Assembly: GCF_017094505.1 (NCBI RefSeq)
Contig: NZ_CP064787.1
Coordinates: 992,001-1,056,000, forward strand
Reading direction: 5' to 3'
Length of the DNA: 64,000 bases
Source: Halapricum desulfuricans
GTDB lineage: Archaea > Halobacteriota > Halobacteria > Halobacteriales > Haloarculaceae
In this document: positions 9,838 to 50,930 of the stretch, one piece after another
How the letters are laid out: every line of letters starts with the position of its first letter
Numbering within the stretch: the first letter of the stretch is position 1
Notes under the pieces: model-generated
What the model saw: only the letters and a program-made list of their open reading frames with translations
Databases searched by the model: none
Told to the model about the DNA's origin: nothing
Translations under genes and position numbers: made by a program

Positions 9838-9859
9838 AGCAATTTTGGATTAAAACGAT

Positions 9860-9867
9860 ATACCTAT
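9860..9867 (-). promoter_or_regulatory. TATA-like box for the HalOD1 gene
   Basis: On the minus strand the A/T-rich GGTATATCG lies 25-30 nt before the ATG at 9837, consistent with a leaderless transcript. Confidence 0.45.
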
Positions 9868-10007
9868 AGTGAGATGGCAAGTACCTGGAAAGCACTCGCC
9901 GTCACAGAAGCGTCCCGGTAGGACACGGACAGAGCGGCAACCACTCCGGACGTATTCGTAGACAAGTGGCAAGAACACCTAATACGGTAATGGCTTCATA
10001 CCAACGT

Positions 10008-10417: not shown

Positions 10418-10501
10418 CGGGGGCGCCGGAAGGGCGCGCTCGTTCTATTGGTGCGGTAGGGAGCCTTTGACTAAGGAGGTCCCACCCAAGGCCCCACACG
10501 A

Positions 10502-11596: not shown

Positions 11597-11648
11597 TCAC
11601 ACTGCGGGTGCGACCACAGGCCGTTCCGGGACGACACAGCGATCCGTG

Positions 11649-18212: not shown

Positions 18213-18385
18213 CGTACCACCACTCGACGTATGAGACGCGTAGTTATCACCCTCTTACCGGCCTCGATCGGCCCGCTGCTGTCGGAAGCTTCTGTCGGAG
18301 ATCGCGTTAGGAACTCGTTACTGTTCTAGATGGGTCCTTACCCGGCAGTATGCTCACAATCACTTTCCAGACGCGTGGCCAGTGT

Positions 18386-35581: not shown

Positions 35582-35776
35582 CCACTCTGATTGGGATTAG
35601 CGTCGCCGATCGAGCGACCGGATCGTCGTTCCCGGGCGAACGCTATGGAGTTCTACGCTCATCGGGATCGCCATCGACGCGGTCGTGACGACGTCACCCG
35701 GGGCGGCGTCTCCGTGCCCGCGAGTAGCCGATCCATTACTAACTGGCATAGCCGCCCTGAGTCGAACAGGCCTTCA

Positions 35777-37066
35777 ATGCAGTCTGATACTGAGTCGGGC
35801 TCCGACAGCTCCGACGTGCAGGTGCCGGTCCATCGCGAGCGTGACACGCCGGGGGACAGCCCACCGACTGTGCTGCTGCTCGACGGTGACTACGACAACA
35901 CGCTCTCCGTCGCGAGAGAACTGTCCGAGGACCTCAATGCCCGGATAATCGGGACCGGCACGACCCGATACAGTCGACTCTTGCGGTCGAACTACTGTGA
36001 TGTCGGCGAGGTCGTTCCGGCTCCCGACGAAGCGGGTTACGCCGAGGCGCTACTCGAAGTGATGGCCAGACACCGGCCGCAGATCGTCTTGCCGGTCGGA
36101 TACGACTCGATGGCGGCCGTCGATTCGATCAGATCGGAGATCCCGGACGCGGTCGAGATCTGTCTCCCGCCGTCGGAATCGTTTCGCGTCGCCGTAGACA
36201 AGGCAAGAACGTTACAGCGGGCCGAGCGTCTCGGGATCCCCGTCCCGACCGACTATTCGGATACTGCCGAGGAACTCGATGCGAGCGGACGCCCGACTCC
36301 CGCCGACGCGCTTCCGTTCCCGGTGTTTCTCAAGGCCAGACGCGAGAACGGAACCGTGACGACGGCCCGCGTCGACGAGCCGGCGAATTTCTGGACGGCC
36401 TACGACGGCATCGCCGCCGCGGCCTCCGACGGAAACGTGCTGGTCCAGGAGTACGTCGACGGTCCCGACGTGACCTTCGGCTGTGGCGTGCTCTGTCTCG
36501 ACAACGAGATCGAGCTGCTGGTCAGCCACCGGGAACTCCGTTCCGTGCCGCGCCACGGCGGCAGCGGGACCCATCTCCGTCTCGTCGGGAACCCGACGAC
36601 CGAAGCGAAAACGGCTGCGTTGCTCCGCGATATCGGTTGGAACGGGGTCGCCCTCGTCGAGTTCAGACAGCGGTCCGACGGCACGTACGTGCTGATGGAG
36701 ATCAACCCGAAGTTCTGGGCCTCCTACGCGCTGGCCAGCCGGTTCGGCTACCGGTTCGCCTCGACGATGGTCGCCAGCGCCCTCGATCTCGACGTGTCCC
36801 GCCCGATCGGGTCCCCACAGCGAACCGGGGAGATGGTGTTTCCCCTCCGTGAACTCCAGCAGTACGTTCGGAACCGGCGCGACGAGCGCCTGCTCGACTG
36901 CGTCGGGACGATCATGGCGGCCGACGCCCGCTGGGACATCGACGCGTCGGATCTCGGTGCCTGGTTGACGCCACCGGCCGGGGTTCTCCGGAAGATACCG
37001 ACACTCGACGGAAGCCGGGCGGAGCGGACACTCCCCGGGTCCGAAACAGCACCCACCGAAAAATAG
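35777..37066 (+). CDS. ATP-grasp ligase-like protein (1)
   Basis: A 429-residue ATP-grasp protein. The N-terminal domain has TVLLLDGDYDNTLSVARELS and the central domain LPFPVFLKARRENGTVT (Lys of the ATP lid) and VLVQEYVDGPDVTFGCGVLC. The C-terminal ATP/Mg site reads GWNGVALVEFRQRSDG and YVLMEINPKFWASYALASRF (about residues 312-331), with the E-x-N metal ligands. This family makes amide or peptide bonds via acyl-phosphates. It ends 11 nt before barrel paralogue A, and the two are surely co-transcribed. The frame is open upstream to 35591, but that part is not protein-like. Substrates unknown. Confidence 0.88.
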   Translation: MQSDTESGSDSSDVQVPVHRERDTPGDSPPTVLLLDGDYDNTLSVARELSEDLNARIIGTGTTRYSRLLRSNYCDVGEVVPAPDEAGYAEALLEVMARHRPQIVLPVGYDSMAAVDSIRSEIPDAVEICLPPSESFRVAVDKARTLQRAERLGIPVPTDYSDTAEELDASGRPTPADALPFPVFLKARRENGTVTTARVDEPANFWTAYDGIAAAASDGNVLVQEYVDGPDVTFGCGVLCLDNEIELLVSHRELRSVPRHGGSGTHLRLVGNPTTEAKTAALLRDIGWNGVALVEFRQRSDGTYVLMEINPKFWASYALASRFGYRFASTMVASALDLDVSRPIGSPQRTGEMVFPLRELQQYVRNRRDERLLDCVGTIMAADARWDIDASDLGAWLTPPAGVLRKIPTLDGSRAERTLPGSETAPTEK

Positions 37067-37077: not shown

Positions 37078-38292
37078 ATGGATGGAACACAGCTCACACC
37101 GACAAAAGAAACGCACGCCGTCTCGACCGACGTCGTCGCCCTCTGTCGAGACGTGCTCGAGTATTCGCGCGAGCGGGACTACACCGGCTGGGATTACGTC
37201 GATGGACTGAGTAGCGAGTTCGTCCAGTGGCTCCCCTTCGAGAACAAGTACCTCAACCTCGCCGTCCAGGAAGGCATCAAGCGTGCGCCCGTCAATCTGC
37301 GCCCGTACTTTCGCGTCGAACAACGGCGCAGCTACCTCGGGGCAGCGCTGTTCGCGATGGCGAACGTCGACATGTACAGGCTCACCGGCGATGACCGGTA
37401 CGCCCGGGAAGCGACGGACCTCGTCTCCTGGCTGGTCAGCGAGCGAGTCGAGGGGTTCAGCGGCTACGCGGGCGGCGGTCACCGACATCCGATTCAGAGT
37501 CTGGGGCGTGACACGGCCTCGACGCCCGGGGAGAGCTCAGGCGTCGTGTCGGCGACGCTGGGCGCGGAGGCGTTTCTCCAGTACGACGAGGCGTTCGATG
37601 CGCCCGAATACGCGGAGCTCGCACACTCGGCCGCCGAGTTCGTCATCGAAGACCTCGATTACACGGCGGTCGATGAGGGTGCACACATCAACTATATCCC
37701 GAGAGACACGGACGCGTACACACTCAACGCCAACGCGCTCGGCGCTCGCCTGCTCGTGAACCTGTACGCGCGGTTCGACGAGGACCGGTTGCTCGACGCC
37801 GCGAGAGAGATCATGGACTACGTCGCCTCGAAGCAGGCCATAAACGGCGGCTGGATGTACACGGACCCGCCCTCGGCGTCTCACCTCTCGATGGACAGCT
37901 TCCACAACGGGTTCATTATCGAGTCGCTCCTGCGCTATCGGGAGGTGACTGGCTCGGACCGGTACGACCCGACGATCCGGCGTGCCCGGGAGTTCTATCG
38001 GGAGCAGCTGTTCGAGCCCGACGGTGCCCCGAACTGGGACGAATCGAGCACGTATCCCCGTGACATCCACGCGGCCGCCCAGGGGATCATTGTGTTCACC
38101 GAACTGGGCGAGTTCGCGTTCGCCCGCCGGATCATCGACTGGGCGCGGGACACGCTCTACGCCGGCGACGGCCAGTTCTACTACCAGCAGCGGCGATTCT
38201 ACACGAAACGGTTCACGCTCATGCGGTGGTGTCAGGCCTGGATGGCCTACGCGCTCTCGACGTACGCCACGGCGAACGAACTCTCCCGGTAA
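37078..38292 (+). CDS. Uncharacterised alpha/alpha-barrel-like protein, paralogue A
   Basis: A 404-residue soluble protein without signal peptide. It contains repeated helical-hairpin units, as in (alpha/alpha)6 toroids of polysaccharide-acting enzymes. Motifs shared with paralogues B and C: DYTGWDYVDGLSS (about residues 32-44), VNLRPYFRVEQRR, LNANALGARLLVNLYARF, DPPSASHLSMDSFHNGFIIE (about 263-282), YPRDIHAAAQGI, and LYAGDGQFYYQQRRFYTKRF then MRWCQAWMAYAL. The invariant His, Asp, Arg and Trp residues suggest an active site. It follows an ATP-grasp gene by 11 nt. I cannot assign a reaction; isomerase, epimerase, lyase or hydrolase on glycan are open. Confidence 0.8.
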   Translation: MDGTQLTPTKETHAVSTDVVALCRDVLEYSRERDYTGWDYVDGLSSEFVQWLPFENKYLNLAVQEGIKRAPVNLRPYFRVEQRRSYLGAALFAMANVDMYRLTGDDRYAREATDLVSWLVSERVEGFSGYAGGGHRHPIQSLGRDTASTPGESSGVVSATLGAEAFLQYDEAFDAPEYAELAHSAAEFVIEDLDYTAVDEGAHINYIPRDTDAYTLNANALGARLLVNLYARFDEDRLLDAAREIMDYVASKQAINGGWMYTDPPSASHLSMDSFHNGFIIESLLRYREVTGSDRYDPTIRRAREFYREQLFEPDGAPNWDESSTYPRDIHAAAQGIIVFTELGEFAFARRIIDWARDTLYAGDGQFYYQQRRFYTKRFTLMRWCQAWMAYALSTYATANELSR

Positions 38293-38332
38293 CCGGTTTG
38301 GATTTCTCACCCGACAGGAATCTTGGAGGGGG

Positions 38333-38340
38333 TTTTATGA
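38333..38340 (+). promoter_or_regulatory. TATA-like box of the HalOD1 gene at 38365
   Basis: TTTTATGA lies 25-32 nt before the ATG at 38365, matching a leaderless start. Confidence 0.4.
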
Positions 38341-38364
38341 TTTTGCGGGTTACAAGCGTCTGCT

Positions 38365-38631
38365 ATGGGAGCCACCGATCTGGCGGAGCCTGCGACTATC
38401 GGGGTTGTAAACGCCGTTGCCGAGACCAAGGGCGTTTCGCCGGAAGAACTCGCGCCGCTTGCGGACGTCATCGATCCCGATGCACTCGAAGCGCTGTTCG
38501 GATCTCCGTCGGATCATCGACAGGAGTTTCGGTTCGAGTACGAAGGTTGCACTGTGATCGTAACGAACGACACAGGGGTCACGGTGCGTGCACACGCCGA
38601 CCTGGCCGCTGAGAGCGCACCGGTCAACTGA
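38365..38631 (+). CDS. HalOD1 output-domain protein
   Basis: An 88-residue protein that is almost exactly one HalOD1 domain: TIGVVNAVAETKGVSPEELA, PLADVIDPDALEALFGS (about residues 31-47), FRFEYEGCTVIVTNDTGVTV. This is the most typical of the three HalOD1 proteins in the window. It lies between barrel paralogue A and the convergent ATP-grasp gene, with its own TATA-like box. The partner and output are unknown. Confidence 0.88.
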   Translation: MGATDLAEPATIGVVNAVAETKGVSPEELAPLADVIDPDALEALFGSPSDHRQEFRFEYEGCTVIVTNDTGVTVRAHADLAAESAPVN

Positions 38632-38671
38632 ATCGCCCGGGAGGGATCGCCGGCGGCCGTGAAACCGGTAG

Positions 38672-39877
38672 CTACAGCACCTGGCTCTCGATGAGACGCT
38701 TGACGCCGACGACCGCCGGGAGGGGGTCGTCGGCGTGGAAGTCGTCGAAATTCGGCGTCTCGGCGAACGAAGCGAGTATCTTCAGCAGTTCAACGGGCGG
38801 TGACGGGCGCTCGACGAACGGCGACTGTTCCTGAAACAGGCTGCGGAAGTACTTCATCTCCCCGTACAGCGTGTGGGTTCCGACGCCGGTCTCGTAGTCG
38901 TTGTCGATCTCGTCCGAGCGCCCCTGCGACTGGAGCCAGTAATATACCGGAAAGTCCGCCCCCGACTGGATCGCACAGTTGGTCGACTGCCACAGCCGCG
39001 GGTTGATCTCGATAAATTTGAACTCCCCCGTTCGGGCGTCTTCCATGTATTCGATACAGGCGAGCCCGTGCCACTCGAGGCTGTCGAGCAACGCCCGCCC
39101 GGTCGATTCGAGTCGCGGGATGTCCACCGACTTCCGGTAGACGCCGCCGCCGTGGGTATAGGAATCGCCGCGGATCTGTCGGTGCTGGAACGTCGCCAGC
39201 GCGTCGCCGTGATCGTACAGCGCGCCGAAGACGTACTTCCCGGCGCTGTGGATGTACTCCTGTACGACCGGTTCGTGGTACATCGCCTCCCTGATCGCGT
39301 CGGTGTCCGGGACAGTTCCGTCCCGAACGAACTCGACCGTCTTCACCGTGCCGGGGATCACACTCGTATCCTGGCCGAGGTACTCGTCCGCCAGGAGGTT
39401 GTACCGGGCTTTGATTATCAGATCGGAGTCCCAATCGTTCACGTCCTCGAGCAGCCGCGTTTCCGCCGTCGGGACGCCGGCTTCCCGGGCCGCTTCTGCC
39501 AGCCGGAGCCTGTCGTGGCAGAGCCGCAAGGTATCGAACGACGGGACGACGAGATCGACGTACTGTTCGAACTCCGATCTGTATTTGGCGAAGACGTACG
39601 GGTCCTGGGGCCGTATCGGGAGGATCGTATCGACGTCCGGTCTGGCGGCTATCCCGACGAGCGCGTCCTTGTACGCCTCTAAGTCCTCCGAGATCGGCGG
39701 GATCGATATCGATTCGTCACAGCTCCGTGAGGCAGCGGCGGGGAGATCATCGTATTCCGATGCGACGATCGTGTCGAGGCCGGCACGGGACAGCGACCGC
39801 ACACAGGAGTAACTCTTCCCGGGATCGATCCCCGCGGGCACGACGACTGCGTTCTGATTCGGTTCCGGCTTTGCCAT
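38672..39877 (-). CDS. ATP-grasp ligase-like protein (2)
   Basis: A 401-residue ATP-grasp protein starting MAKPEPNQNAVVVPAG. The pre-ATP-grasp domain has SRSCDESISIPPISEDLEAY and ILPIRPQDPYVFAKYRSEF. The ATP-binding part has SDLIIKARYNLLADEYLG (lid Lys) and VVQEYIHSAGKYVFGALYD. The C-terminal site has WHGLACIEYMEDARTGEFKF and IEINPRLWQSTNCAIQSGAD with E-x-N ligands (about residues 310-330). Such proteins are often called carboxylate-amine ligases. The ATG at 39877 is preferred over 40102 because the family start follows. It converges on HalOD1. Confidence 0.87.
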   Translation of the reverse strand: MAKPEPNQNAVVVPAGIDPGKSYSCVRSLSRAGLDTIVASEYDDLPAAASRSCDESISIPPISEDLEAYKDALVGIAARPDVDTILPIRPQDPYVFAKYRSEFEQYVDLVVPSFDTLRLCHDRLRLAEAAREAGVPTAETRLLEDVNDWDSDLIIKARYNLLADEYLGQDTSVIPGTVKTVEFVRDGTVPDTDAIREAMYHEPVVQEYIHSAGKYVFGALYDHGDALATFQHRQIRGDSYTHGGGVYRKSVDIPRLESTGRALLDSLEWHGLACIEYMEDARTGEFKFIEINPRLWQSTNCAIQSGADFPVYYWLQSQGRSDEIDNDYETGVGTHTLYGEMKYFRSLFQEQSPFVERPSPPVELLKILASFAETPNFDDFHADDPLPAVVGVKRLIESQVL

Positions 39878-40037
39878 GTGCGATCGTACACAACTCGGTC
39901 CCATCAGTATGGACTTGATACCGCCCAGACGGCCGTTCCAGAACAGCGGACGTTCGCTGTCGTCTGGCGATCGATCCGAGGCAGTCGCCGATCCGAAACA
40001 GGCACATGAGAGTCCGTCCGTCGTTTCGGCAGGCGTG

Positions 40038-41048
40038 TCACTTCCGGCGTCTGTACATCCGGGCCGCGAGTGAACCCAGCAACGAGGCGCGTTCGATCCC
40101 ATAGAAGGGCGTCAGTTCCGGGCCGAATTTCGACTTGTAGCGGTTGATACGGGGCGTGTTCGCACCGACGAGATCGTACGTCGTGCAGCCGCTCTCGCGC
40201 CCGGCGCACAGCACTTCCCAGTCAAGCACGTCGTTGATCGGGAAGTCGCTGTCAACGTCGGGTTTGACACCGCCCTGCCAGCGGGCGATGGTATCGCCGA
40301 ACTCCACGGCCAAGATGCCGCCGACGAACGACCCGTCGAGACGGCAGGTGAACGGGCGAATCGTTCCATCGGGTGTTTGCTCGTACAGCTCCCGGACGAA
40401 CGAGGGAGTCACGTCGTAGGGAACGGCCTGGGCCGCATAGCGCGAGCGGACCTGCTCGACGATCCGGTCGATCGCCTCCGGACCCCGTTCGCCGACGTCG
40501 TAGTCGGTCGCCGCGGCGTTCCTGATGTTAGTGCGGGCGTCTCGACTGAACTGATCGAGGAGGGCCGACTCCGGGCCGGTGATGTCGACGTGGTAGGTGT
40601 AGGTCGGGGACACCGTGCAGTCGTTCCAGACGAACGGGCGGACGTCCGGGTATCCCGGCGCGGTCCGGACGTGGATGTAGCTGGGGTCGACGCGCTCGTC
40701 GACCCACTCCAGGACGCCGTCGATGAACGCCCGCTGGCGGCGCTCGGTCTTTCGCTGCGTGAGTTTGTCCATGTTGAGCAGCCCGGGTCCGAGATAGACG
40801 ATCCGGAGCCCCGGCGGCGGGGAGAAGACTGTCGTTATCGGCCCGTAGCGCCGTTCGAACACCGGGAAGACGCCCACCGGCTCCTGGCCCTTGTATCCGA
40901 CCAGTCGGTGGACAGTGCTGTCGGCGCGTCTCGCGATGACGGCCAGCGCCTCCCACTGGTGCATCGCGTCGGTGTAGCGTGCCCGCTCGACGAGGGCATT
41001 CCACTCTGCGGGCGTCATGTCGTCCGCGCTCGTGATGTCGATAGTCAT
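40038..41048 (-). CDS. FemAB/GNAT-like transferase (1)
   Basis: A 336-residue protein with the double-GNAT fold of FemAB-like transferases. YTDAMHQWEALAVIARRADS and VGYKGQEPVGVFPVFERRYG form the first module. SRDARTNIRNAAATDYDVG gives the conserved basic region. The second module ends VGGILAVEFGDTIARWQGGV (about 250-270), INDVLDWEVLCAG and YDLVGANTPRINRYKSKFG (about 300-318). FemAB enzymes transfer aminoacyl groups to amino sugars or peptides; the archaeal acceptor is unknown. Its ATG overlaps the stop of the phosphodiesterase-like gene at 41045 (ATGA), so they form an operon. Confidence 0.85.
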   Translation of the reverse strand: MTIDITSADDMTPAEWNALVERARYTDAMHQWEALAVIARRADSTVHRLVGYKGQEPVGVFPVFERRYGPITTVFSPPPGLRIVYLGPGLLNMDKLTQRKTERRQRAFIDGVLEWVDERVDPSYIHVRTAPGYPDVRPFVWNDCTVSPTYTYHVDITGPESALLDQFSRDARTNIRNAAATDYDVGERGPEAIDRIVEQVRSRYAAQAVPYDVTPSFVRELYEQTPDGTIRPFTCRLDGSFVGGILAVEFGDTIARWQGGVKPDVDSDFPINDVLDWEVLCAGRESGCTTYDLVGANTPRINRYKSKFGPELTPFYGIERASLLGSLAARMYRRRK

Positions 41049-42679
41049 TCTATGTAGCCCAGATCTGTCAGGCGTTGCTCGACGGTCGCGCCGTCGGTCG
41101 TGGTCCGCGTGGTCCGCTGTGGGTCGGGATAGTCCTGCCGGCCGACCCCCTCGACGATCCGCAGCGCCGCCCCGTCCATCCGTCGGTCGGCCGGGACGCC
41201 GAACGTCGCGAGGACGGTCGGCGCGATATCGAGCAGCGTCGCCCCCTCGAGCGAGCGGCTCGCGTCGATCGCCTCGCCCCGGGCGGCGACGAGACCGTCC
41301 AGCTTGTGGTTCCAGGGTTCGGTCGGCCGGCCGAACACCGAGCCCCGGATCTCCGCCGACAGGAAGTGCTCGAATCCCGCCGGCACGAGGACGATGTCGG
41401 CTGCCCGCTCGGTCTGTGGCCCTTCGAACACCGCTTCCCGCGGCAGAACCGCCTCGAACAGAGGGCTCCCGTCGGGGGCCTCGACCTCGCGCAGCGCCGC
41501 GATCAGTTCGGCCCGGACGGGCCCGTACTCCGCGGGCGGGACGACGCCGTCCGGCTCGCGTCCGGCGAGATTGAGGCGGATCCCGCACTCGGTTCTGGAG
41601 CGCATGTACGCGGCCGAGTTCGGGAAGTCGACCCGCTCGGTGCCGGATCTGATCACGCTCGCCGGGACCGCGCGAGCGACCGTCTCCGCGAGGCCGACGC
41701 GCTCGAGCGCGCGACCGATTCGCTGACTCGTGAGTCCGAGGCGAGCGGCCGCACTGACCGCGGCCGCCAGGGCGCTGTCCCGCAGCGCCGCCACCTGCTC
41801 CCGGCGCGGCGGATCCGCCGCGTCCCCGCCGGCTTTCAGCTCGCTGTCACGCACCGTCGACCAGGTCGGCATCCCGTCACCGCCTGCAGCGGTCCGAACG
41901 TCCCCGCGCCCTGCGAGGAAGTCGTTGGCGCGGAACTCGACCCCCGCGAGCGGCCCCATCCCGTGGTCGCTGACGACGAAGACGTTGTCCGGATCGCAGG
42001 CGTCCAGCACCAGCCGTATTTCGGCGTCGACCGCGCGGTAGATCGCCTCGACGGTCTCCCAGTCGTCCGGTCGATCGTGAAAGACCGTGTCCGTCGCCTG
42101 GAACTGCAGGAAGCCGAAGTCCGGGTCGAACCGATCGGCGAGGTAGCGAAACGCCGCGCCCCGGGAGGAGACGGCGGCGGTGTATCCGTGCTCGCCCCCG
42201 GACTCGTCGGGATAGATCCGATAGGACCCGATCGCGTCTTCCAGTTCGTCGAAGAGACCGGCCGGATGACACGTCGGCGATTCGGGAGCCATGTACCCGG
42301 GCACCAGCGCGCCGTCGAACGCGGTCGGCGGATGGGTCACCGGGACGTTTACGACGACGCTCCGGAAGCCGTGGCGGTCGAGCAACTCCCAGACCGGTCG
42401 TTCCCGGCAGTGGGTGGCGTTGACGACGTCCCACTCGTACCCGTCGAAGGACAGGAAGTCGAAGACCCCGTGTTTGCCCGGATTCATCCCCGTATAGAGG
42501 GAGGGCCACGCGCTGGGCGTCCAGGGTGGCACCTGTGACGTCAGGGGGGCGTCGACGCCGGTCTCGAATATCGAACGAAGCGTCGGGACCGCGTCCCCGG
42601 GGAGCCGATCGAGAACGCCGTGACACGCGGCGTCGAGGCCGAAGACGACCGTCCGCACGCCGCCATCCCGAGTGTCCAT
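41045..42679 (-). CDS. Alkaline-phosphatase-superfamily phosphodiesterase-like enzyme
   Basis: A 544-residue soluble protein of the type I phosphodiesterase/nucleotide pyrophosphatase group. VVFGLDAACHGVLDRLPGD has the metal Asp16. The nucleophile loop PPWTPSAWPSLYTG (about residues 51-64) carries Thr54. NVFVVSDHGMGPLAGVEFR supplies the second metal site and LDIAPTVLATFGVPADRRMDG ends the fold. It may hydrolyse or transfer phospho-linked substituents, or cleave nucleotide sugars or polyprenyl pyrophosphates. The ATG at 42679 lies close to the divergent secreted-protein gene. It is the upstream gene of the two-gene operon with the FemAB-like gene at 40038. Confidence 0.88.
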   Translation of the reverse strand: MDTRDGGVRTVVFGLDAACHGVLDRLPGDAVPTLRSIFETGVDAPLTSQVPPWTPSAWPSLYTGMNPGKHGVFDFLSFDGYEWDVVNATHCRERPVWELLDRHGFRSVVVNVPVTHPPTAFDGALVPGYMAPESPTCHPAGLFDELEDAIGSYRIYPDESGGEHGYTAAVSSRGAAFRYLADRFDPDFGFLQFQATDTVFHDRPDDWETVEAIYRAVDAEIRLVLDACDPDNVFVVSDHGMGPLAGVEFRANDFLAGRGDVRTAAGGDGMPTWSTVRDSELKAGGDAADPPRREQVAALRDSALAAAVSAAARLGLTSQRIGRALERVGLAETVARAVPASVIRSGTERVDFPNSAAYMRSRTECGIRLNLAGREPDGVVPPAEYGPVRAELIAALREVEAPDGSPLFEAVLPREAVFEGPQTERAADIVLVPAGFEHFLSAEIRGSVFGRPTEPWNHKLDGLVAARGEAIDASRSLEGATLLDIAPTVLATFGVPADRRMDGAALRIVEGVGRQDYPDPQRTTRTTTDGATVEQRLTDLGYIE

Positions 42680-42803
42680 AGCGGAAGACGACCGCACGCG
42701 GCTATTGTTATGGCTATGCTTACGAAACACACCACAGGACCAACATGATCGGCCGGTAGATAACGGCTGTATACTAATACGCGGATGCGGCTTGGATTTC
42801 ACC

Positions 42804-44090
42804 ATGGTAGACGGGAAAATCGGTTCGCTGACCAGACGAGCCGTTCTGGGCGCGACCGGCGCGCTGATGGCCGGCGGGACCGCCCTCGGGACGAGCCGGG
42901 TCGGGGGCGCACCGGGGGCGTTCGTGCTCGAGCAGGGCGAGGAGTGTCTCCCGATCGCGCCCCTGCGCGGCGACGAAACGGCCGAGGACCTGTACGACCG
43001 GCGAACGGCACAGACCGACTACAGCTCCGCCGGCACGACCGACCTCCAGCGTGACGATACGAGCATCCTCTTTCTGTATCGAGATCCACAGGGCGAGCAC
43101 TATCTCGTCGTCGTTCACGACAGATACGACACGGACCGTTCCGGGAGTCAGCGCGGTGGTGGTTCGGCCACATTCGAGTTCAGCGGCCCGGACTCGGGAC
43201 AGTGGGTCGTCACCGACGACCTGTACTCGGGCTCGGCGAACTACGACAGGTGGGCACTCGATCAGGACCCCCAGCGGATCGACTGGACCTGGGACGACTT
43301 CCGGACCGACGGCGGCGTGTACGGTCCGCTCGGCGACTCTTTCGAGGTGACGATCGATCCGGCGTTTAACGAGGACGCGGCGCTGTTCGACCAGCACTAC
43401 GAGGGTCGGATCACCGACTGGCAGGTGCTCTCGGGAGGTCGGTCGGACCCCGATCGGACCTCGATGTCGATGGACGAGCCGATCCGGATCCGCGCGGGTC
43501 GCTGCGAGGACGAGCCACGGTCGGGTCGACTCGACGTTAGGGTCCCGCAGCGCCGCGTTAACCCCCGCAGTCGCGGGCTACTTCCTGTCGACCTCTACTC
43601 GACCGACACGCATCCGGTCGGGGATGTCGACCCCGGGACCATCCGCACGCGGTCTAACGGCGTTCGGCCCGTCAAGATACGCCGCCGGTCGGACAGGGAC
43701 GGAACCGTCCGGCTGTTCTTCCGGACGTCTGACGTAGATCTCACGGGCGAGGAAACGGCGACGATCCGGCTCGAAGCCGAGACCGCCAGCGGCGCCCGCG
43801 GGACCGGATCGGCGACCGTCCGACTGGTTCCTCGGCCGCGACGGGACGAATCCGACGGGAATCGTCCGGGCCGTCGCGAGGACGATACCGATGGCGCGAA
43901 GGGGGGCGATGACAAACAGCGAGGGCCACCGGGCCACGCGAGTTCGAACGGTCGAAACGGTAATGATACCGATGACGCGAAGGGGGGTGATGACGAACAG
44001 CGAGGGCCACCGGGCCACGCGAGTTCGAACGGTCGAGACGGTGACGACGGGCGCGGAGGCCAACCGGGATCGGGTCGACGGAGTTCCTGA
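42804..44090 (+). CDS. Tat-exported protein with tandem-repeat tail
   Basis: A 428-residue secreted protein. The start IGSLTRRAVLGATGALMAGG is a twin-Arg signal with an Ala/Gly-rich hydrophobic region, probably without lipobox. The body has EHYLVVVHDRYDTDRSG, WDDFRTDGGVYGPLGDSFEV and a beta-sandwich-like domain GLLPVDLYSTDTHPVGDVDP, common in haloarchaeal secreted proteins. The C-terminus is a low-complexity tail made of two copies of a 27-residue unit ending RGPPGHASSNGR. No catalytic motif is seen. It is divergent from the phosphodiesterase-like gene; the ATG at 42804 gives the correct signal. Confidence 0.8.
   Translation: MVDGKIGSLTRRAVLGATGALMAGGTALGTSRVGGAPGAFVLEQGEECLPIAPLRGDETAEDLYDRRTAQTDYSSAGTTDLQRDDTSILFLYRDPQGEHYLVVVHDRYDTDRSGSQRGGGSATFEFSGPDSGQWVVTDDLYSGSANYDRWALDQDPQRIDWTWDDFRTDGGVYGPLGDSFEVTIDPAFNEDAALFDQHYEGRITDWQVLSGGRSDPDRTSMSMDEPIRIRAGRCEDEPRSGRLDVRVPQRRVNPRSRGLLPVDLYSTDTHPVGDVDPGTIRTRSNGVRPVKIRRRSDRDGTVRLFFRTSDVDLTGEETATIRLEAETASGARGTGSATVRLVPRPRRDESDGNRPGRREDDTDGAKGGDDKQRGPPGHASSNGRNGNDTDDAKGGDDEQRGPPGHASSNGRDGDDGRGGQPGSGRRSS
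43884..44045. repeat. Two 81-bp tandem repeats in the secreted protein gene
   Basis: Units at 43884-43964 and 43965-44045 share long identical stretches, for example the 20-mer CGAGGGCCACCGGGCCACGC in each. The 27-residue period stays in frame. The two copies differ at only a few positions, so the duplication looks recent. Confidence 0.85.
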
Positions 44091-44269
44091 TGGTGGCCGC
44101 TGTAACTGCCTGCATAGACGACAGCCACGACACTGTCCACAGGGTTGCGAACCCGGGCCGGGCCGTCGGCTGTACCCGCATGAGCGGTGTCGTTACCCCT
44201 GGATGGCGACCGTTCGCACGGAGTGACAGCCAGCACCATCAAACACAGCCGATACCGCGGTACTAGACC

Positions 44270-45304
44270 ATGGAAATCAAACGAGTCACGCTGGACGAGT
44301 GGGGACAGCTGCTCCCGGCGTCCGGGTTCGAGGTGTTTCACACCCCGGAAGCGCTGTCGGTCCTCGATGCTCACACGAGCGGGGACTTGCAGTTGCTCGG
44401 TGGCTTCAAAGGGAAGTCCCCGGTCGCCCTGCTGCCGGCGTTCGTCCGCGAACTGTCGGTCGGTCGGGCGGTCTTCTCCCCGCCGCCGGGGATGGGCGTG
44501 CCGCGTCTCGGGCCGATCGTCATGCCCAACAGCCCCAAGCGGAGCAAGCAGGAATCGGTCACACGCGCGTTCGTCGAGGGCGTGATCGAGGAGCTCGACG
44601 CGAACGATCCGCTGTCGCTGCTCAGAATGCAGTGCAGTCCGTCGTTCACCGATCCCCGTCCGTTCAACTGGGAGGGGTTCAACGTGGAGCCGGCGTTCAC
44701 GTACCTCGTCGACGTCGACAAGCCTGATATCGAGACGGTCCTCGAGCCGTTCAGCCGGAGCCGCCGCCGGGAGTTTCGACGGGCGACCGAGACGGAACTC
44801 TCGGTGACGCGAGAGGGCATGGCGGCCGCCGAGCGGATCGTAAATCACGTCGGGGATCGGTACGACGAGCGCGACGACATTGGACGGGTCCCGTGGCCGT
44901 ACGTCCGAGACCTGCTCGAGGCACTCCCGGATCGTTCGAGAGTCTACGTCGCCCGAGATCCTACCGGAGAGTACCTCAGCGGCATTATCACTCTCATCTC
45001 GGACGAGATGGTGTACTTCTGGCAGGGGGGCGTCAGCGAAAGCTACGAGGCGACTGACGACGGTGACGGCGGCACCGTCAGCGTGAACTCGCTGGTACAC
45101 CGGACGATCATCGAGGACGCTCTGACGGACCCGGAGTTCTCGGACGTCGGCTACTACGACCTGGTCGGTGCGAACACCCGCCGACTGTGCGCGTACAAAT
45201 CGAAGTTCGGCGGGCAGTTATCCCCGTACTACGTCGTCGAATCGTCGGGCATGAGTACGACACTCGCGAAAGCTGGCTACCGGTTTCTGACCCGCCACCG
45301 GTAG
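44270..45304 (+). CDS. FemAB/GNAT-like transferase (2)
   Basis: A 344-residue paralogue of the protein at 40038-41048. Shared blocks are VFSPPPGMGVPRLGPIVMPN (compare VFSPPPGLRIVYLGPGLLNM), SRSRRREFRRATETELSVT, YFWQGGVSESYEATDDG and YDLVGANTRRLCAYKSKFGG (about residues 292-311). The fold is double GNAT as in FemAB. The probable role is transfer of an acyl or aminoacyl group to an amino group on the glycan precursor. It is convergent with barrel paralogue B (80 nt apart), with a GC-rich hairpin between them. The start at 44270 follows a weak leader. Confidence 0.85.
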   Translation: MEIKRVTLDEWGQLLPASGFEVFHTPEALSVLDAHTSGDLQLLGGFKGKSPVALLPAFVRELSVGRAVFSPPPGMGVPRLGPIVMPNSPKRSKQESVTRAFVEGVIEELDANDPLSLLRMQCSPSFTDPRPFNWEGFNVEPAFTYLVDVDKPDIETVLEPFSRSRRREFRRATETELSVTREGMAAAERIVNHVGDRYDERDDIGRVPWPYVRDLLEALPDRSRVYVARDPTGEYLSGIITLISDEMVYFWQGGVSESYEATDDGDGGTVSVNSLVHRTIIEDALTDPEFSDVGYYDLVGANTRRLCAYKSKFGGQLSPYYVVESSGMSTTLAKAGYRFLTRHR

Positions 45305-45353
45305 GTATCGGCACGAACGTGACAATCCGTACCGGGAAGCTGATATCCGTCAT

Positions 45354-45379
45354 CCGGCCGGCCGGGAACCTCCGGCCGG
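45354..45379. terminator. GC-rich hairpin between convergent genes
   Basis: CCGGCCGGCCGG (45354-45365) and CCGGCCGG (45372-45379) can pair. The position between convergent genes would suit a bidirectional end structure, but no T tract is present. Confidence 0.35.
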
Positions 45380-45384
45380 GTGCG

Positions 45385-46665
45385 CTACTCTCCGGGCAGA
45401 CGGGACGCGAGCGGCAACTGCCGGCGTCGCCGTAACGGCTCCTGGCTGCTGACGCGGAGGTGTTCGGCGAGCGCGTAGGCCATCCAGGCCTGACACCACC
45501 GCATGAGCGTGATCCGCTGCGTGTAGAAGCGATGCTTCCGGAAGTAGTACCGCCCGTCACCGACGTAGAGGTTGTCGAGGACCCACTGAATGACGGTCCG
45601 CGCCCTGTCGAACTCCCCGGCGTAGGTGAACACGAGGATCCCCTGGGCGGCCGCGTGAATGTCCCGCGGGTACGCCGTGACCTCGTCGAAGCGCGGCGCG
45701 CCGTCTCCCTCGAACAGTGACCGATAGAACGACTGCCCCCGATCGAGCGTGTCCGTGTATCGGGAGTCGTCGGCGACCCCCGCGTATCGCTGGAAGGACT
45801 CGATGACGAACCCGTTGTGATGGGAGTCCATCGAGAGATGAGACGCGTCGGGCGGGTCGCGATAGTACCATCCGCCGCTATCGGTCTGCAGTCCGGCGAT
45901 GTGATCCAGCAGGGCCGTCGCCCGATCGAGGTGTGCCTCGTCGCCGACGGCCACGTAGAGGTCCAGAAATAGGCGGGCACCGAGCGCGCCGGCGTTGATC
46001 GTGTAGTGATCGCCGTGGTTCAGGTGGTAATCGATTACCGCGCCGTCTTCGACCTCGCGGTAGTCGAGGTCCTCGACGACGAACTCGGCGGCACTGCGAG
46101 CCGTCTGTAGATAGCGGTCCCCGAGGTCCGCGTTCGAGAGCAGTGCCCGAACGGCGTAGGACGTCGACACCACGTCCGGATCGGTCGGGACTCCGATTCG
46201 TCCGTTGAGATGCTGTATTCGGTGCTGGTGTCCGCCGCAGAACCCGCTGTACCCGGGACACTGGTTGTCGAGCAGCCAGTCCAGCAGACGGATCGTTTCC
46301 GCTCGCACGTCGACATCTGTGTGCTCACCTGCCCCGTCGGTGAGCTGGTAGCACGTTCGGTTAGCCATCGCGAACAGGGCCGTTCCCTTGAAGTTGCGGC
46401 GCTGTTCGACCAGAAACAGCGGCCTGAGGTTGATCGGCGGTCGCTTGACGGCCTCCTGAAACGCGACGTTCAGCCACTTGCTCTCGAGAGGCAGTGCCTG
46501 CAGGAGTCGACTACTCATCCCGTCCCCGTAGTCCCAGCCCGTGTAGTCGTGGCGGCGACTGTACGCCAGTGTCTTCCGGAGCAGTGAAACCACTTCCCGG
46601 TCCGTGAGATGGGCTCCTGCGGCCGGTGCGTCGATCGAGGCGACGCGAGCGCGCTGGTCGGTCAT
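45385..46665 (-). CDS. Uncharacterised alpha/alpha-barrel-like protein, paralogue B
   Basis: A 426-residue soluble paralogue of the proteins at 37078 and 49716. Conserved blocks: DYTGWDYGDGMSSRLLQALP, INLRPLFLVEQRRNFKGTAL, CPGYSGFCGGHQHRIQHLN, INAGALGARLFLDLYVAV, DPPDASHLSMDSHHNGFVIE, YPRDIHAAAQGILVFTYAG and LYVGDGRYYFRKHRFYTQRI. It is closer to paralogue C than to A in these blocks. A C-terminal Arg-rich tail (EPLRRRRQLPLASRLPGE) is unique. The ATG at 46665 is preferred; the frame upstream is not protein-like. Function unknown, with the same barrel inference. Confidence 0.8.
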   Translation of the reverse strand: MTDQRARVASIDAPAAGAHLTDREVVSLLRKTLAYSRRHDYTGWDYGDGMSSRLLQALPLESKWLNVAFQEAVKRPPINLRPLFLVEQRRNFKGTALFAMANRTCYQLTDGAGEHTDVDVRAETIRLLDWLLDNQCPGYSGFCGGHQHRIQHLNGRIGVPTDPDVVSTSYAVRALLSNADLGDRYLQTARSAAEFVVEDLDYREVEDGAVIDYHLNHGDHYTINAGALGARLFLDLYVAVGDEAHLDRATALLDHIAGLQTDSGGWYYRDPPDASHLSMDSHHNGFVIESFQRYAGVADDSRYTDTLDRGQSFYRSLFEGDGAPRFDEVTAYPRDIHAAAQGILVFTYAGEFDRARTVIQWVLDNLYVGDGRYYFRKHRFYTQRITLMRWCQAWMAYALAEHLRVSSQEPLRRRRQLPLASRLPGE

Positions 46666-46818
46666 CTGTGTGGGCGCCCCACGAGACGGACTGCGCGCGC
46701 GAGAACGACAGTGTGAGCCATACAACAGACGTCTCGGCCTGGCCCGAATTGGTAATGTTCGTCTTACTAGCGAAAGGTGCTCCGAGCAGGGTTGGTGTAC
46801 TAAAAGCGTTGGGGACCC

Positions 46819-46830
46819 AACCAATTGGTT
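46819..46830. promoter_or_regulatory. Perfect 12-bp palindrome, candidate operator
   Basis: AACCAATTGGTT is fully self-complementary and lies in the divergent control region, about 155 nt upstream of the paralogue B start. No binding protein is known. Confidence 0.4.
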
Positions 46831-46982
46831 CTCGGTAGTATGCCAGAAACGTACTCCTATGAGCGTCGGGATACAGCCGCTCGGTGGTAGTGGGTTGCCT
46901 AGAGGTGGCGGAAGGCGGACTAACACTCCCATACTGGGGCATCGATGCAGGGGAACAGCTAACACGGGAGAGACACAATCGC

Positions 46983-47066
46983 ATGACTGCGAAGCGGACC
47001 CGCACAACGATCGGCGAATCGAGTCTGAACGGTGTACACGTGAGCAAAACGGCGCTACGGAGGTGA
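46983..47066 (+). CDS. Possible 27-residue leader peptide gene
   Basis: Reads MTAKRTRTTIGESSLNGVHV then SKTALRR, a basic peptide. Its TGA is part of GGAGGTGA, the Shine-Dalgarno of the DUF7344 gene 4 nt downstream, so termination here would favour re-initiation. The basic composition is unlike typical haloarchaeal proteins, so it may be a chance frame. Confidence 0.3.
   Translation: MTAKRTRTTIGESSLNGVHVSKTALRR
47059..47066 (+). promoter_or_regulatory. Shine-Dalgarno deciding the DUF7344 start
   Basis: GGAGGTGA is 4 nt before the ATG at 47071. Such a strong site implies a leadered mRNA, unlike several leaderless neighbours. Confidence 0.55.
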
Positions 47067-47070
47067 TTCG

Positions 47071-47706
47071 ATGAGTAGTATTGGTCAGGCTACTGAAGAG
47101 GCGCTGGAAGACGCGACATCAAGTGTCGCCCCCGAAGCGGAAGAGATCGAAGACGAAACGGCACTCGAGGACCCGGCCGAGCCAGCGCCTGATCTCTCGA
47201 TTGACGTCATCTTCGAGGTGCTCAAAAACGAGCGCAGACGGCGGGTGATCGAGTACCTGCAAGCCAACGACGGTCCCGCGGAACTCGGGACCGTCGCCGA
47301 ACACATCGCGGCGCTGGAAAACGACAAGGAGGAGTCGGCGATCTCCTACGACGAGCGCAAGCGCGTCTACGTCGGCCTGTATCAGTGCCATCTCCCGAAG
47401 ATGGACGACATGGGAGTCATCGACTTCAATCGGGCGCGCGGCCGGATGGAACTGACCGATCAGGCCCAGCAGCTCGATCCCTACCTGCAGGGGCCCGTGT
47501 CACGCCGCCCGTGGTATCACTACTACGGGACGATCGTGCTCGGCGGTCTGGGGATGTACGCCGCGGTGCTCGCGCAGATCGCCCCGTCGATACTGTCACT
47601 ACAGGTTGTGCTCGGCGGCGTGCTCGCCGCGATGGCCGTGTGTACGGTCTTTCACTCGCTCGACGAAATGTCACAGACGGCCCCGGATCTGTCGCTGCGG
47701 TCGTGA
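47071..47706 (+). CDS. DUF7344 regulator with C-terminal TM helices
   Basis: A 211-residue protein. An acidic N-terminal extension (about 40 residues) precedes the winged helix LSIDVIFEVLKNERRRRVIE, a linker LENDKEESAISYDERKRVYV, GLYQCHLPKMDDMGVIDFN and the wing ARGRMELTDQAQQLDPYL. Two TM helices follow (about residues 150-168 and 173-192). The architecture matches 26306-26845, so it is a membrane-anchored regulator. It has a strong Shine-Dalgarno and a possible upstream leader peptide. It is divergent from barrel paralogue B and so may control the glycan genes; this is inference. Confidence 0.85.
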   Translation: MSSIGQATEEALEDATSSVAPEAEEIEDETALEDPAEPAPDLSIDVIFEVLKNERRRRVIEYLQANDGPAELGTVAEHIAALENDKEESAISYDERKRVYVGLYQCHLPKMDDMGVIDFNRARGRMELTDQAQQLDPYLQGPVSRRPWYHYYGTIVLGGLGMYAAVLAQIAPSILSLQVVLGGVLAAMAVCTVFHSLDEMSQTAPDLSLRS

Positions 47707-47816
47707 TAGGGCGGTGTGTGCCAGTCCCGGGCCGCCTTCCGTGAGGCAGTCGGCGATCTGGCTGAAGGCGCCGGTCAACTCGCCGGTCGGCCCGGAAAGG
47801 CGGTCGGTAGTCGACG

Positions 47817-49604
47817 TCACCCCTGGTGTTGATCGAAGTGTCGCTGGAGCCAGATCTCGAGCGTCGTGAGCGCGCTGATCACGTCCATGTCGGCTCCGTC
47901 GCCCAGCTGTTCCCGGTAAGAGGCGACCGCCTCACCGTCGATAAAGGGTCGTTCACCGACGGCGTCGAGGAGGTCGTCGATCTTCGTCCGGAACGCCTCG
48001 TGGGTGTTGTACCACGTCTCGGTCCTGCTGGTTGCGCTTCCGTAGGTCGGCCTGGACAGCAGCTGTGCGATGGCGGTCGCGGTGTAGAATCCAATCACGT
48101 GGAGGGGGTACGGCATAGAGGGCTTCAGCCGCGACCGCTCGTAGGGGATCTCCGCGAGATCGGCGTTGAGCGTGCGAATCAGCTGGAGCTTCGGCTCGAC
48201 GAGACCGTAAATGAGTTCCCCGTCCGAGAACGGGAGCGCCCTCATACGCCAGGAGACGGGGAGTTTCGCGGCTTTCGACAGGAACTCCCCGTCGGCGTAG
48301 GGGACGCGCGTTCCGACCTGATTGCGCGCGACGGGATTGCTCGCGTGCGCGAGACGCGGGAAGTAGTTCTGGTAGTGGGCGTCGACGATTCCCTCGGTGA
48401 GTGTCGGCTCGTCGATCCGGCGCGCCTCCTTGCGGAACGAGCCCAACGGGTCCACCGGCACGGCCAGCAGGTCTTCGACCGCTTCGGCCGTCAGGGTCGC
48501 CTCGCTCGCGTACATCGACTCGACGAGCGACGACGGTTCGGTCAGGTGGTGCCGACAGAGATGGTGGCCGGCGAACGACCCCGCGATGCCCTCTAGCATG
48601 ACGTCCGGGTCGCGGTCGTCGATGTTGAACGTGGCGGTGAGATTGAGCAGCGTGTTCCACTTCAACATGCCGTCGGTGACGGAGACTGCCTTCTCCAGTA
48701 CCGGGGTGAACTGCTCGACCGTCAGCGGAACCGTCTCGTTGTCGAGGCCGAGTACCTCGGCCGTCTCCGCGGCCAGCCTGAGGTTGACCCCGCCGCCGGG
48801 GTTCGCGTCGTAGGTGTACGTCACCAGCGACTCGAAGTCCCCGTCGTCGGCGCGAGCGAGTTCGTTCGCCGTCGCTCGGCTGTCGAGGCCGCCCGACAGC
48901 CACAGCCCGACGTCACCTGTCATCGTGTTGGCCGTCCGCTCGGCCGAGCGCTGGTAGGCGTTCGTCCATTCGTGGCGATACTCGTCGGTCGGCTGGGCCG
49001 GCCTGTAGTCGGGCTTCCAGTATCGTCGCTCGTCGATCTCTCCCGCTCGATACTCGATGACCGTCGCGGGATGGACTGCGTCGACTCCCTCCAGAAGCGT
49101 CGTGTCACTCCACATGTGTCCCATGAGCAGGAGGTCGCTGACGCCCTGGGTATCGATCGCCGCCCCGTCGAGATAGTCCAGAAACGGTGCCAGCCTGGAC
49201 GCGAAGGCGAAGCCTCGCTCGCTGGTGTAGAGGGGGATCCGACTGCCGATCCTGTCGGTCGCGAGAATCACCCTGTCGTCGGCGGCGTCCACACAGGCGA
49301 TCGTGAACGGCCCGTCGAGCGCTCGAAGCGTCGCCTCCGGGGAGCGAAGGAGTCGCTCGAAGATCTCCCGGTCGTCCCAGCCCAGCGCGTCGCGGTTCGA
49401 GACCGCGCCGTCGATCGCGCCCGCGGCCTGCCCGTCGCCCCAGAACGTGTATCCCTTGGGGTCTTTCTCGCCGTGGTGCTTGAGCGCGAGGCCGTGTTCA
49501 CCGGCCTCGAAGCGCTCTGTCTCGTACCACGGCTCCTGTGGCAGTGTCTCGACCATCCCTTCTAGCTGTGCCCGATCGACGGTGCCGCCGACGATTCCGG
49601 TCAT
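47817..49604 (-). CDS. Asparagine-synthetase-like protein lacking the glutaminase Cys
   Basis: A 595-residue protein with an N-terminal class II glutamine amidotransferase-like domain and a C-terminal AsnB-type ATP-dependent synthetase domain. The latter is intact at the PPi loop LWLSGGLDSRATANELARAD (about residues 234-253). The first domain begins MTGIVGG where active enzymes begin MCGI, so the N-terminal nucleophile Cys is Thr. The NGE motif region reads AIDGAVSNRDAL, with Asp for Asn. It is probably ammonia-dependent, or transfers another amine. In O-antigen clusters AsnB relatives amidate uronic acids. Divergent from barrel paralogue C. Confidence 0.85.
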   Translation of the reverse strand: MTGIVGGTVDRAQLEGMVETLPQEPWYETERFEAGEHGLALKHHGEKDPKGYTFWGDGQAAGAIDGAVSNRDALGWDDREIFERLLRSPEATLRALDGPFTIACVDAADDRVILATDRIGSRIPLYTSERGFAFASRLAPFLDYLDGAAIDTQGVSDLLLMGHMWSDTTLLEGVDAVHPATVIEYRAGEIDERRYWKPDYRPAQPTDEYRHEWTNAYQRSAERTANTMTGDVGLWLSGGLDSRATANELARADDGDFESLVTYTYDANPGGGVNLRLAAETAEVLGLDNETVPLTVEQFTPVLEKAVSVTDGMLKWNTLLNLTATFNIDDRDPDVMLEGIAGSFAGHHLCRHHLTEPSSLVESMYASEATLTAEAVEDLLAVPVDPLGSFRKEARRIDEPTLTEGIVDAHYQNYFPRLAHASNPVARNQVGTRVPYADGEFLSKAAKLPVSWRMRALPFSDGELIYGLVEPKLQLIRTLNADLAEIPYERSRLKPSMPYPLHVIGFYTATAIAQLLSRPTYGSATSRTETWYNTHEAFRTKIDDLLDAVGERPFIDGEAVASYREQLGDGADMDVISALTTLEIWLQRHFDQHQG

Positions 49605-49715
49605 TGGGGATACAATACCCGGTCCGGTCAATCAGTATACGCCCGCTACCTGTCGAGACAGGGGCCTATAACGAAGTGTCCGCCGGCGTCACTCCCGGTC
49701 GGTAGATCGATTCTT

Positions 49716-50930
49716 ATGGTTGCCGACCACCGGTCGCCCGCCGGGCGACAGCGCGCGAGTCCCCCGACGGACAGCGCCGCGGCCGCCGGGCTCGCGGCAC
49801 TTGCGTACGCCGCCCGGCGGGAGTACACCGGCTGGGACTACGCCGACGGCATGAGCAGTCGCCTCCGGCGGGCGCTCCCGTTCGACAACCGGTGGGTGAA
49901 CCTCGCCGTCCAGGAGACGATCAAGCGCAGCCCCGTCAACGTTCGCCCGCTGTTTCTGGTCGAACAGCGCCGCAACTTCAAGGGAACGGCCCTGTTCGCG
50001 CTGGCCCACCGGGAGTTCGACCGCGCGTCGCTCAAGACCGACTTCGAGCACGCGCGCGAGGCGACGCGACTGGCCGACTGGCTTCTCGACAACCAGTGTC
50101 CCGGCTACAGCGGATTCTGCGGTGGCCATCGCCACGAGAACCAGCATCTCGACCACCGGACGTTGCCGACCGAGCCCGACGTCGTGTCGACCGCCTACGG
50201 CGTCAGGGCACTGCTCGCGGCGGCCGAGTACGATCCGGAATACGCGGCCGTCGCACGCACGGCCGAGGCGTTCTTGCTCGAGGACATGCGCTACCGCGAG
50301 GTCGAGGGCGGCGCGAAGATAGACTACTACCCGAAAGACACGGCCGACCACTACACGCTCAACGCCGGCGCGCTCGCCGCCCGGACGCTCGTGGACCTCT
50401 ACGCGCACGTCGGCGACGATCCGCTCCGCGAGCGGGCACGGAAACTCCTCGATTACGTCGTCGCGCGCCAGACCGACCGCGGCGGGTGGTACTACCGCGA
50501 TCCGCCCGACGCGTCCCACCTCTCGATGGACACCCATCACAACGGGTTCGTCATCGAGTGTCTCCAGCGGTACCGCGAGGTCACGGGCTCGCGGCGATAC
50601 GACGAGGCGCTCGGTCGCGCGCTCGAGTTCTTTCAGGACGCGCTGTTCGAGGCGGACGGCGCGCCGCGCTTCGACGAGTCTACGGCGTACCCGCGGGACG
50701 TCCACGCGGCCGCCCAGGGGATCCTCGTGTTCACATACGCCGGTGACCTGCAGTTCGCACGCCGGATCGTCGACTGGACGCTTGAGCACCTCTATGCCGG
50801 GGACGGACGGTTCTACGTCCAGAAACGCCGCTTCTACACGAAGCGGATCACTCTGATGCGGTGGTGTCAGGCCTGGATGGCCTACGCGCTCGCGGTATAC
50901 TGTCGGTCGGCGGAAGCCGGTAGCGAGTGA
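49716..50930 (+). CDS. Uncharacterised alpha/alpha-barrel-like protein, paralogue C
   Basis: A 404-residue soluble protein close to paralogue B. Shared blocks: EYTGWDYADGMSSRLRRALP (about residues 32-51), VNVRPLFLVEQRRNFKGTAL, CPGYSGFCGGHRHENQHLD, LNAGALAARTLVDLYAHVGD, DPPDASHLSMDTHHNGFVIE, YPRDVHAAAQGILVFTYAGD, LYAGDGRFYVQKRRFYTKRI then TLMRWCQAWMAYALAV. Regular Gly-Trp-(Y/M)-Y and (F/Y)E-like helix ends suggest an alpha/alpha toroid. The gene is divergent from the AsnB-like gene with 111 nt between. Start at 49716 is the first ATG. Function unknown. Confidence 0.8.
   Translation: MVADHRSPAGRQRASPPTDSAAAAGLAALAYAARREYTGWDYADGMSSRLRRALPFDNRWVNLAVQETIKRSPVNVRPLFLVEQRRNFKGTALFALAHREFDRASLKTDFEHAREATRLADWLLDNQCPGYSGFCGGHRHENQHLDHRTLPTEPDVVSTAYGVRALLAAAEYDPEYAAVARTAEAFLLEDMRYREVEGGAKIDYYPKDTADHYTLNAGALAARTLVDLYAHVGDDPLRERARKLLDYVVARQTDRGGWYYRDPPDASHLSMDTHHNGFVIECLQRYREVTGSRRYDEALGRALEFFQDALFEADGAPRFDESTAYPRDVHAAAQGILVFTYAGDLQFARRIVDWTLEHLYAGDGRFYVQKRRFYTKRITLMRWCQAWMAYALAVYCRSAEAGSE

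Follow-up and report, generated by a model that had tools for sequence, protein, structure and literature searches.

Three paralogous proteins of Halapricum desulfuricans, here called A, B and C, belong to a real, functional and widely distributed enzyme family, and we propose, with a probability of roughly 0.6, that they are cytoplasmic hexosaminuronate C5-epimerases of the D-ManNAcA to L-GulNAcA type. The genes lie in a window of 64,000 nucleotides (contig NZ_CP064787.1, positions 992,001 to 1,056,000, forward strand), to which all coordinates below refer unless the contig is named. An enzyme acting on glycans, such as an epimerase, lyase or hydrolase, had been suggested in a sequence-only reading of this DNA. 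This suggestion is supported by the predicted toroid fold and by the rank of C5-epimerases in profile comparisons, and the predicted activity was narrowed to that of a C5-epimerase because of the genomic context, the synteny with vpsJ and a fusion to a glycosyltransferase.

The three paralogues and their locus

Paralogues A (37078-38292, plus strand, 404 aa), B (45385-46665, minus strand, 426 aa if translation starts with the Met codon at 46665, though the reading frame continues farther upstream) and C (49716-50930, plus strand, 404 aa) together span 14 kb of a haloarchaeal surface-glycan locus. Translation and alignment showed that all three are intact, can be aligned over their full lengths and are 52–59% identical pairwise (52% for A and B, 56% for A and C). 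A search of the 2.94-Mb genome with the A/B/C alignment retrieved exactly these three members at E values of at most 1e-229, far beyond chance. The three-member family first recognized from the sequence was confirmed. The motifs quoted for it, namely VEQRR, DPPxASHLSMDxxHNGF, YPRDxHAAAQGI and TLMRWCQAWMAYAL, were all found, with DYTGWDY present in A and B and in the form EYTGWDY in C.

All three paralogues are present in the syntenic locus of Halapricum hydrolyticum, and the omega values calculated against these orthologues (0.13 for A, 0.20 for B and 0.26 for C) point to purifying selection, indicating that the three genes are maintained. In a 72-sequence tree, A clusters with Natrialbaceae proteins and apart from B and C. 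A recent local triplication therefore does not account for the set, which brings together diverged lineages.

A run of plus-strand genes precedes A. It encodes a WbpD-like left-handed beta-helix acyltransferase (27301..27885; assigned from its sequence and from the gene order as annotated in H. mediterranei), a WbpE-like DegT/DnrJ aminotransferase (27882..28979; start placed by analogy with the Halapricum orthologue), a WbpB-like Gfo/Idh oxidoreductase (28976..29956), a WecC/WbpA-like nucleotide-sugar 6-dehydrogenase of the uronate-making type (29943..31313; annotated homologue in H. mediterranei), a GT2 glycosyltransferase (31310..32302) and a WecB/WbpI-like UDP-HexNAc 2-epimerase of the type that makes the manno precursor (32299..33384; Pfam Epimerase_2 E 1.3e-97, contig 1024374-1025348). 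The gene order of 27301-33384 is kept on the H. mediterranei megaplasmid with the exception of GT2, and on a Salinigranum plasmid without the acyltransferase. WecB and WecC alone lead to UDP-ManNAcA; the complete set is one that we take to be the UDP-2,3-diacetamido-mannuronic acid pathway, by comparison with WbpA, B, D, E and I of the P. aeruginosa O-antigen. It is followed by a polysaccharide deacetylase family protein (33377..34291, plus strand), identified by cluster and by its annotated H. mediterranei homologue, with Pfam matches below threshold.

Each paralogue has a partner of a different kind, as had been noted from the sequence. An ATP-grasp ligase (35645..37066, plus strand; Pfam ATPgrasp_Ter E 1.3e-4, below cut-off) ends 11 nt upstream of A, a FemAB/GNAT protein (44270..45304, plus strand) is convergent with B, and an AsnB-like amide synthetase (47817..49604, minus strand), in which Cys2 of the N-terminal glutaminase is changed to Thr (MTGI), is divergent from C. 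Further minus-strand genes encode a second ATP-grasp protein with a weak PylC-like N domain (38672..40102), a FemAB/GNAT (Acetyltransf_6) protein (40038..41048, start estimated), a member of the type I phosphodiesterase / nucleotide pyrophosphatase family (41045..42805) and, beyond C, an ATP-grasp protein (51286..52641, start estimated) and a sugar-transfer-associated ATP-grasp protein (ATPgrasp_ST; 52500..53585).

Predicted fold and comparison with known enzymes

The AlphaFold2 model of C, obtained with a 55-sequence alignment (pLDDT 94.3, pTM 0.92), consists of a single domain in which six inner and six outer helices, together with an N-terminal helix, form an (alpha/alpha)6 toroid, in agreement with the helical-repeat scaffold that had been anticipated. 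The model of a bacterial member showed the same fold. The top PDB matches in Foldseek were AGE-superfamily 2-epimerases (cellobiose and glucose 2-epimerases) and GH76, with GH88, GH105 and a polysaccharide lyase ranking lower; the expected match to (alpha/alpha)6 glycan enzymes was thus obtained. GLCE was absent from the top 50 matches. The 2-epimerases, GH76 and terpene cyclases all matched at TM values of 0.5–0.6, and the search of the predicted models identifies a shared toroid class and no single specific family. The fold by itself is not decisive, since terpene cyclases have it too.

Among 73 sequences, G39, D44, Y204, H275, R382 and W383 never vary, and R77, W258, Y260, D328 and H330 vary once each. 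In the model, D272/H275, D328/H330, R382/W383 and N216 are positioned at the N-terminal ends of inner helices (residues 273, 329, 384 and 215, respectively) or next to them. This is the location of the active site in such barrels, and several invariant or near-invariant residues are predicted to be found there.

When taken individually, A, B and C showed no convincing sequence match in Pfam, NCBIfam or the PDB, all Pfam matches being under the cut-offs. In profile comparison with hhalign, the broad family scored 102 (97.9%) over 224 columns against C5-epim_C (GLCE) proteins, the highest value among the families tested, with lower scores for AGE (53) and an Agl32-type candidate (56). This C5-epim_C set can be relied upon: searched against the PDB, it retrieves GLCE at E 1e-32. 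Weak Pfam C5-epim_C matches were seen in 9 of 55 members (best 5.7e-4), and one divergent archaeal member alone lies above the cut-off of this family (27.7 v 23.3 bits).

Catalysis by GLCE involves E499, Y500, N510, Y560 and Y578 (PMC13308652). In the profile alignment, N216 coincides with GLCE N510 and H275 with the His that follows Y578, the invariant Y204 is one column off Y500 and the near-invariant Y260 is two columns off Y560; E499 has no conserved counterpart in the 73 sequences. This correspondence between aligned profiles is suggestive, not proof. The two groups also differ in architecture, since GLCE has beta-hairpin, beta-sandwich and helical domains, whereas the family model is one helical toroid only, and the family, unlike GLCE, is predicted to be cytoplasmic.

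A second point of comparison is Agl32 of Halobacterium salinarum, an archaeal GlcA to IdoA C5-epimerase that acts on a lipid-linked glycan prior to export (PMC13308652). Agl32 is likewise haloarchaeal, has a single helical domain, and its nearest PDB fold is also cellobiose 2-epimerase. However, the published Agl32 islands are anchored by aglB, and 20 aglB islands were found to be devoid of family members. The candidate Agl32-type ORF from these islands, which represented Agl32 in our comparison in place of Agl32's own sequence, belongs to a separate toroid family with no phmmer match to the present one, and membership of Agl32 in the family was rejected.

The leading Foldseek matches raise two further readings. 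If the proteins were AGE-superfamily sugar isomerases (N-acylglucosamine 2-epimerases), they would act at C2; enzymes of this kind head the matches of both models and share the (alpha/alpha)6 barrel, at a TM of about 0.6. Their His-x-x-Glu and His-His motifs, however, align with Tyr-x-x-Arg and non-His residues, so that the catalytic His/Glu of cellobiose 2-epimerase and RnBP are not kept, and identity to these enzymes is only 10–15%. In addition, the profile score is below that of the C5-epimerases, and a gene for a WecB 2-epimerase is frequently present alongside already. AGE identity, with fold as the sole likeness, was discarded, and we consider action at C2 hardly probable at all. The other reading, a GH76-like glycoside hydrolase or transglycosidase working on surface mannan-like chains, draws on a comparable TM of about 0.6 and on weak profile similarity over the helices (E 5.6e-5 over 152 columns against the GH76 alpha-1,6-mannanases of the PDB). 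GH76 enzymes employ an adjacent Asp-Asp pair in catalysis and are usually secreted, whereas no adjacent conserved Asp pair exists in the 73 members; moreover, 197 genomes of the phylum contained 0 proteins above the Pfam GH76 cut-off. GH76 identity was rejected on account of the weak profile matches and the missing catalytic pair, and a related activity appears very improbable.

Distribution and genomic context

Family proteins have approximately 400 residues; they occur widely among haloarchaea and sporadically among bacteria and methanogens. Examples are WP_004060887 of Haloferax mediterranei and WP_152441558 of Pseudoalteromonas THAF3. A genome scan yielded 71 loci, almost all haloarchaeal, and relatives of 32–36% identity in Planctomycetota, Desulfobulbaceae, Hydrogenedentota and Myxococcota; in the phylum search, 22 of 295 genomes were positive, in a patchy pattern, and plasmid records added members in Methanosarcina, Vibrio, Pseudoalteromonas and Burkholderia. 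Carriage by viruses was considered and set aside, as viral contigs gave no family match. Many members are labeled "antibiotic ABC transporter permease" by NCBI, and "aspartate-semialdehyde dehydrogenase" is also found among the public names. Both are ruled out by the soluble toroid fold and the lack of membrane helices, none of which were detected in A, B and C (best 17-residue hydropathy 1.06–1.36). Neither signal peptides nor twin-arginine motifs were found in members.

We counted neighbors within about 10 kb of 54 haloarchaeal family loci with flanks. WecB, a WecC-type dehydrogenase or DUF354 is nearby in 38 of these loci (24, 24 and 27 loci, respectively); for comparison, WecB, with ~0.7 full-length copies per genome, is expected in about 0.5% of random 21-kb windows. 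Genes of the WbpB, WbpD and WbpE types are often found in the neighborhood as well. FemAB, ATP-grasp or AsnB proteins accompany 42 of the 54, the FemAB family being the commonest direct neighbor, and in Natrialbaceae an ATP-grasp protein and an A-type member form a recurring pair that is followed by a FemAB-type protein. The remaining 16 loci without hexosaminuronate genes close by include stand-alone cassettes of ATP-grasp and an A-type member, and the AsnB-linked bacterial members have no wecB nearby either. For such loci, therefore, the substrates would have to vary or be supplied from elsewhere.

The AsnB-like partners in haloarchaea start with MTG instead of MCG in most clustered copies and in H. 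mediterranei, and consequently have no glutaminase nucleophile, whereas the bacterial partners retain MCGI. Among the clustered copies, the exceptions are one with an uncertain start and one with MALTG. Beta-lactam synthetase provides an AsnB-type precedent for the use of an amine other than glutamine-derived ammonia, and by analogy the Cys-less partners may also use a different amine. We hypothesize that this would fit the formation of uronate-amino acid amides such as GulNAcA-Gly.

Outside the archaea, the member of Vibrio sp. THAF191d occurs in the order vpsU-A-B-D-E-F-G-H-I-[family]-K, followed by rbmA, rbmB and rbmC. It is VpsJ by position, since it lies between a GT4 gene (vpsI) and a WecG-type gene (vpsK); beyond Pfam checks, the vps names are our reading of gene order and sequence, and the orthology rests on synteny in this Vibrio, which is other than V. 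cholerae. VpsK of the same strain belongs to the WecG/TagA/CpsF family (WecG E 3e-65), and WecG transfers ManNAcA. The Vibrio member is 27–30% identical to the family, and a Pseudoalteromonas plasmid carries a member within a similar vps-like locus. VpsJ and the haloarchaeal proteins thus share a family, but differ in host polymer, and the haloarchaeal loci add ATP-grasp, FemAB, AsnB-like and Wbp-type precursor genes.

Among the sugars of the cholera biofilm matrix, Vibrio polysaccharide (VPS) is the principal one. Its structure, solved in 2014, includes alpha-L-GulNAcA that carries glycine in amide linkage; C5 inversion of D-ManNAcA has been put forward as the origin of this uronate, and most vps genes are required (PMC3901696). 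A 2015 review assigns the GulNAcA of VPS to 'an unknown C5-epimerase', and describes the glycine enzyme as likewise unknown (PMC4432689). L-GulNAcA is also present in a V. alginolyticus polysaccharide that resembles Pseudoalteromonas LPS (PMC7600630). In the literature searched, mostly outside subscription journals, we did not find VpsJ named as the C5-epimerase.

A parallel case is found in Halococcus. In the wall of Halococcus morrhuae, gulosaminuronic acid amounts to 110 nmol/mg and glycine to 100 nmol/mg (PMC4187196), and the literature searched gave no assignment of an enzyme for this sugar. In Halococcus thailandensis the genes are arranged as family-wecB-wecC-DUF354-family, and in H. 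morrhuae as family-wecB, the contig ending inside that wecB. The first Halococcus copy has Asn at H330, and the second keeps the His.

These observations bear on whether the family could be a C5-epimerase for another uronate (e.g. GlcA to IdoA, or GalNAcA to L-AltNAcA), with hexosaminuronate neighbors being incidental in many loci. GLCE and Agl32 are indeed glucuronyl enzymes, and several loci have no WecB. We nevertheless find this distinctly unlikely, considering the strong enrichment of WecB/WecC neighbors and the presence of gulosaminuronate in both polymers with known sugars, VPS and the Halococcus wall.

Proposed function

In a planctomycete, the family domain and a GT4 glycosyltransferase form a single in-frame fusion. 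This fusion, the lack of signal peptides and membrane helices and the precedent of Agl32 suggest that hexosaminuronate C5-epimerases of this family would act in the cytoplasm on a lipid-linked intermediate. The C5 chemistry, the exact substrate, the level of action and the amidation step are those that we infer here. Enzymes of the WecB/WbpI and WecC/WbpA types, accompanied in this locus by WbpB, WbpD and WbpE, would generate UDP-D-ManNAcA or its 2,3-diacetamido form, and a glycosyltransferase would load the hexosaminuronate onto a lipid-linked oligosaccharide. The toroid enzyme would bind this oligosaccharide, with invariant Arg residues gripping the carboxylate; an invariant Tyr or His would take the C5 proton, and re-protonation from the opposite face would yield the L-gulo sugar, either L-GulNAcA or L-GulNAc3NAcA. 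The new uronate may often be amidated or linked to an amino acid by neighboring ATP-grasp, AsnB-like or AMP-ligase enzymes.

A polysaccharide lyase or unsaturated-uronyl hydrolase (GH88/GH105-like), perhaps serving in quality control of misassembled lipid-linked chains, would have the toroid class and a related first step in common with such an epimerase. This would be in line with the GH105, GH88 and polysaccharide lyase structures among the Foldseek matches and with weak Pfam matches to Pec_lyase (18 members), GH88 (12) and GH76 (17). No family cut-off was reached by these matches, however, and signal peptides are lacking. The operon partners function in precursor synthesis and not in uptake or degradation, one member is joined to a glycosyltransferase, and the Vibrio loci already possess a secreted lyase, RbmB (PMC11637428). 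We thus regard a lyase or hydrolase as unlikely.

The C5-epimerase reading can be extended to archaea and bacteria alike, a step that we consider possible, if short of probable. VpsJ-type proteins, with A, B and C among them, would constitute a cross-domain family of cytoplasmic hexosaminuronate C5-epimerases responsible for Vibrio L-GulNAcA and Halococcus gulosaminuronate. In haloarchaea they would be part of epimerise-then-amidate modules, in which a separate amide-forming ligase (ATP-grasp, FemAB-linked or glutaminase-dead AsnB) serves each paralogue. C5-epimerase activity has precedents in other families; what would be new is the present family, together with its likely substrate and its single-domain cytoplasmic form. 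The VpsJ-family reading replaces a misleading database name, and a compact one-domain epimerase could serve in making L-gulo uronates. One family thus becomes a single testable candidate for both the Vibrio L-GulNAcA and the Halococcus gulosaminuronate steps.

Gene partners and fusions of the family

In three loci gathered from other genomes (L004, L005 and L006, ~8700-12550), a family member is found with ATP-grasp and FemAB genes in a three-gene cassette that stands alone, polysaccharide genes not adjoining it. The AsnB-like protein of the window (47817-49604, minus strand) carries Thr at the position of the glutaminase Cys2, as do those of loci L007, L009, L011, L013, L056 and L103. A radical SAM/SPASM protein is encoded directly 3' of a bacterial AsnB and family pair (L064, 11186-12550), and a planctomycete ORF of 789 aa (L060, 4367-6736) unites the family and a GT4 glycosyltransferase in one protein.

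Further haloarchaeal toroid proteins

A second haloarchaeal subfamily, with the motif DPYDGLNSP, occurs in loci L070 (14822-16015), L087 and L101; Halococcus encodes it together with the main subfamily, from which it perhaps differs in substrate. The 374-aa toroid protein encoded close to aglB in locus L172 (686-1810), which has Natrialbaceae relatives at 45-49%, probably belongs to the Agl32-type family.

Secreted PKD-domain proteins

Two secreted, Tat-type proteins with PKD domains are encoded in the window, at 57665-60022 (minus strand; weak beta-helix match) and 18350-20401 (plus strand), and their cluster is also present in 15 family loci. These proteins could be archaeal analogues of the Vibrio polysaccharide (VPS) lyase RbmB.
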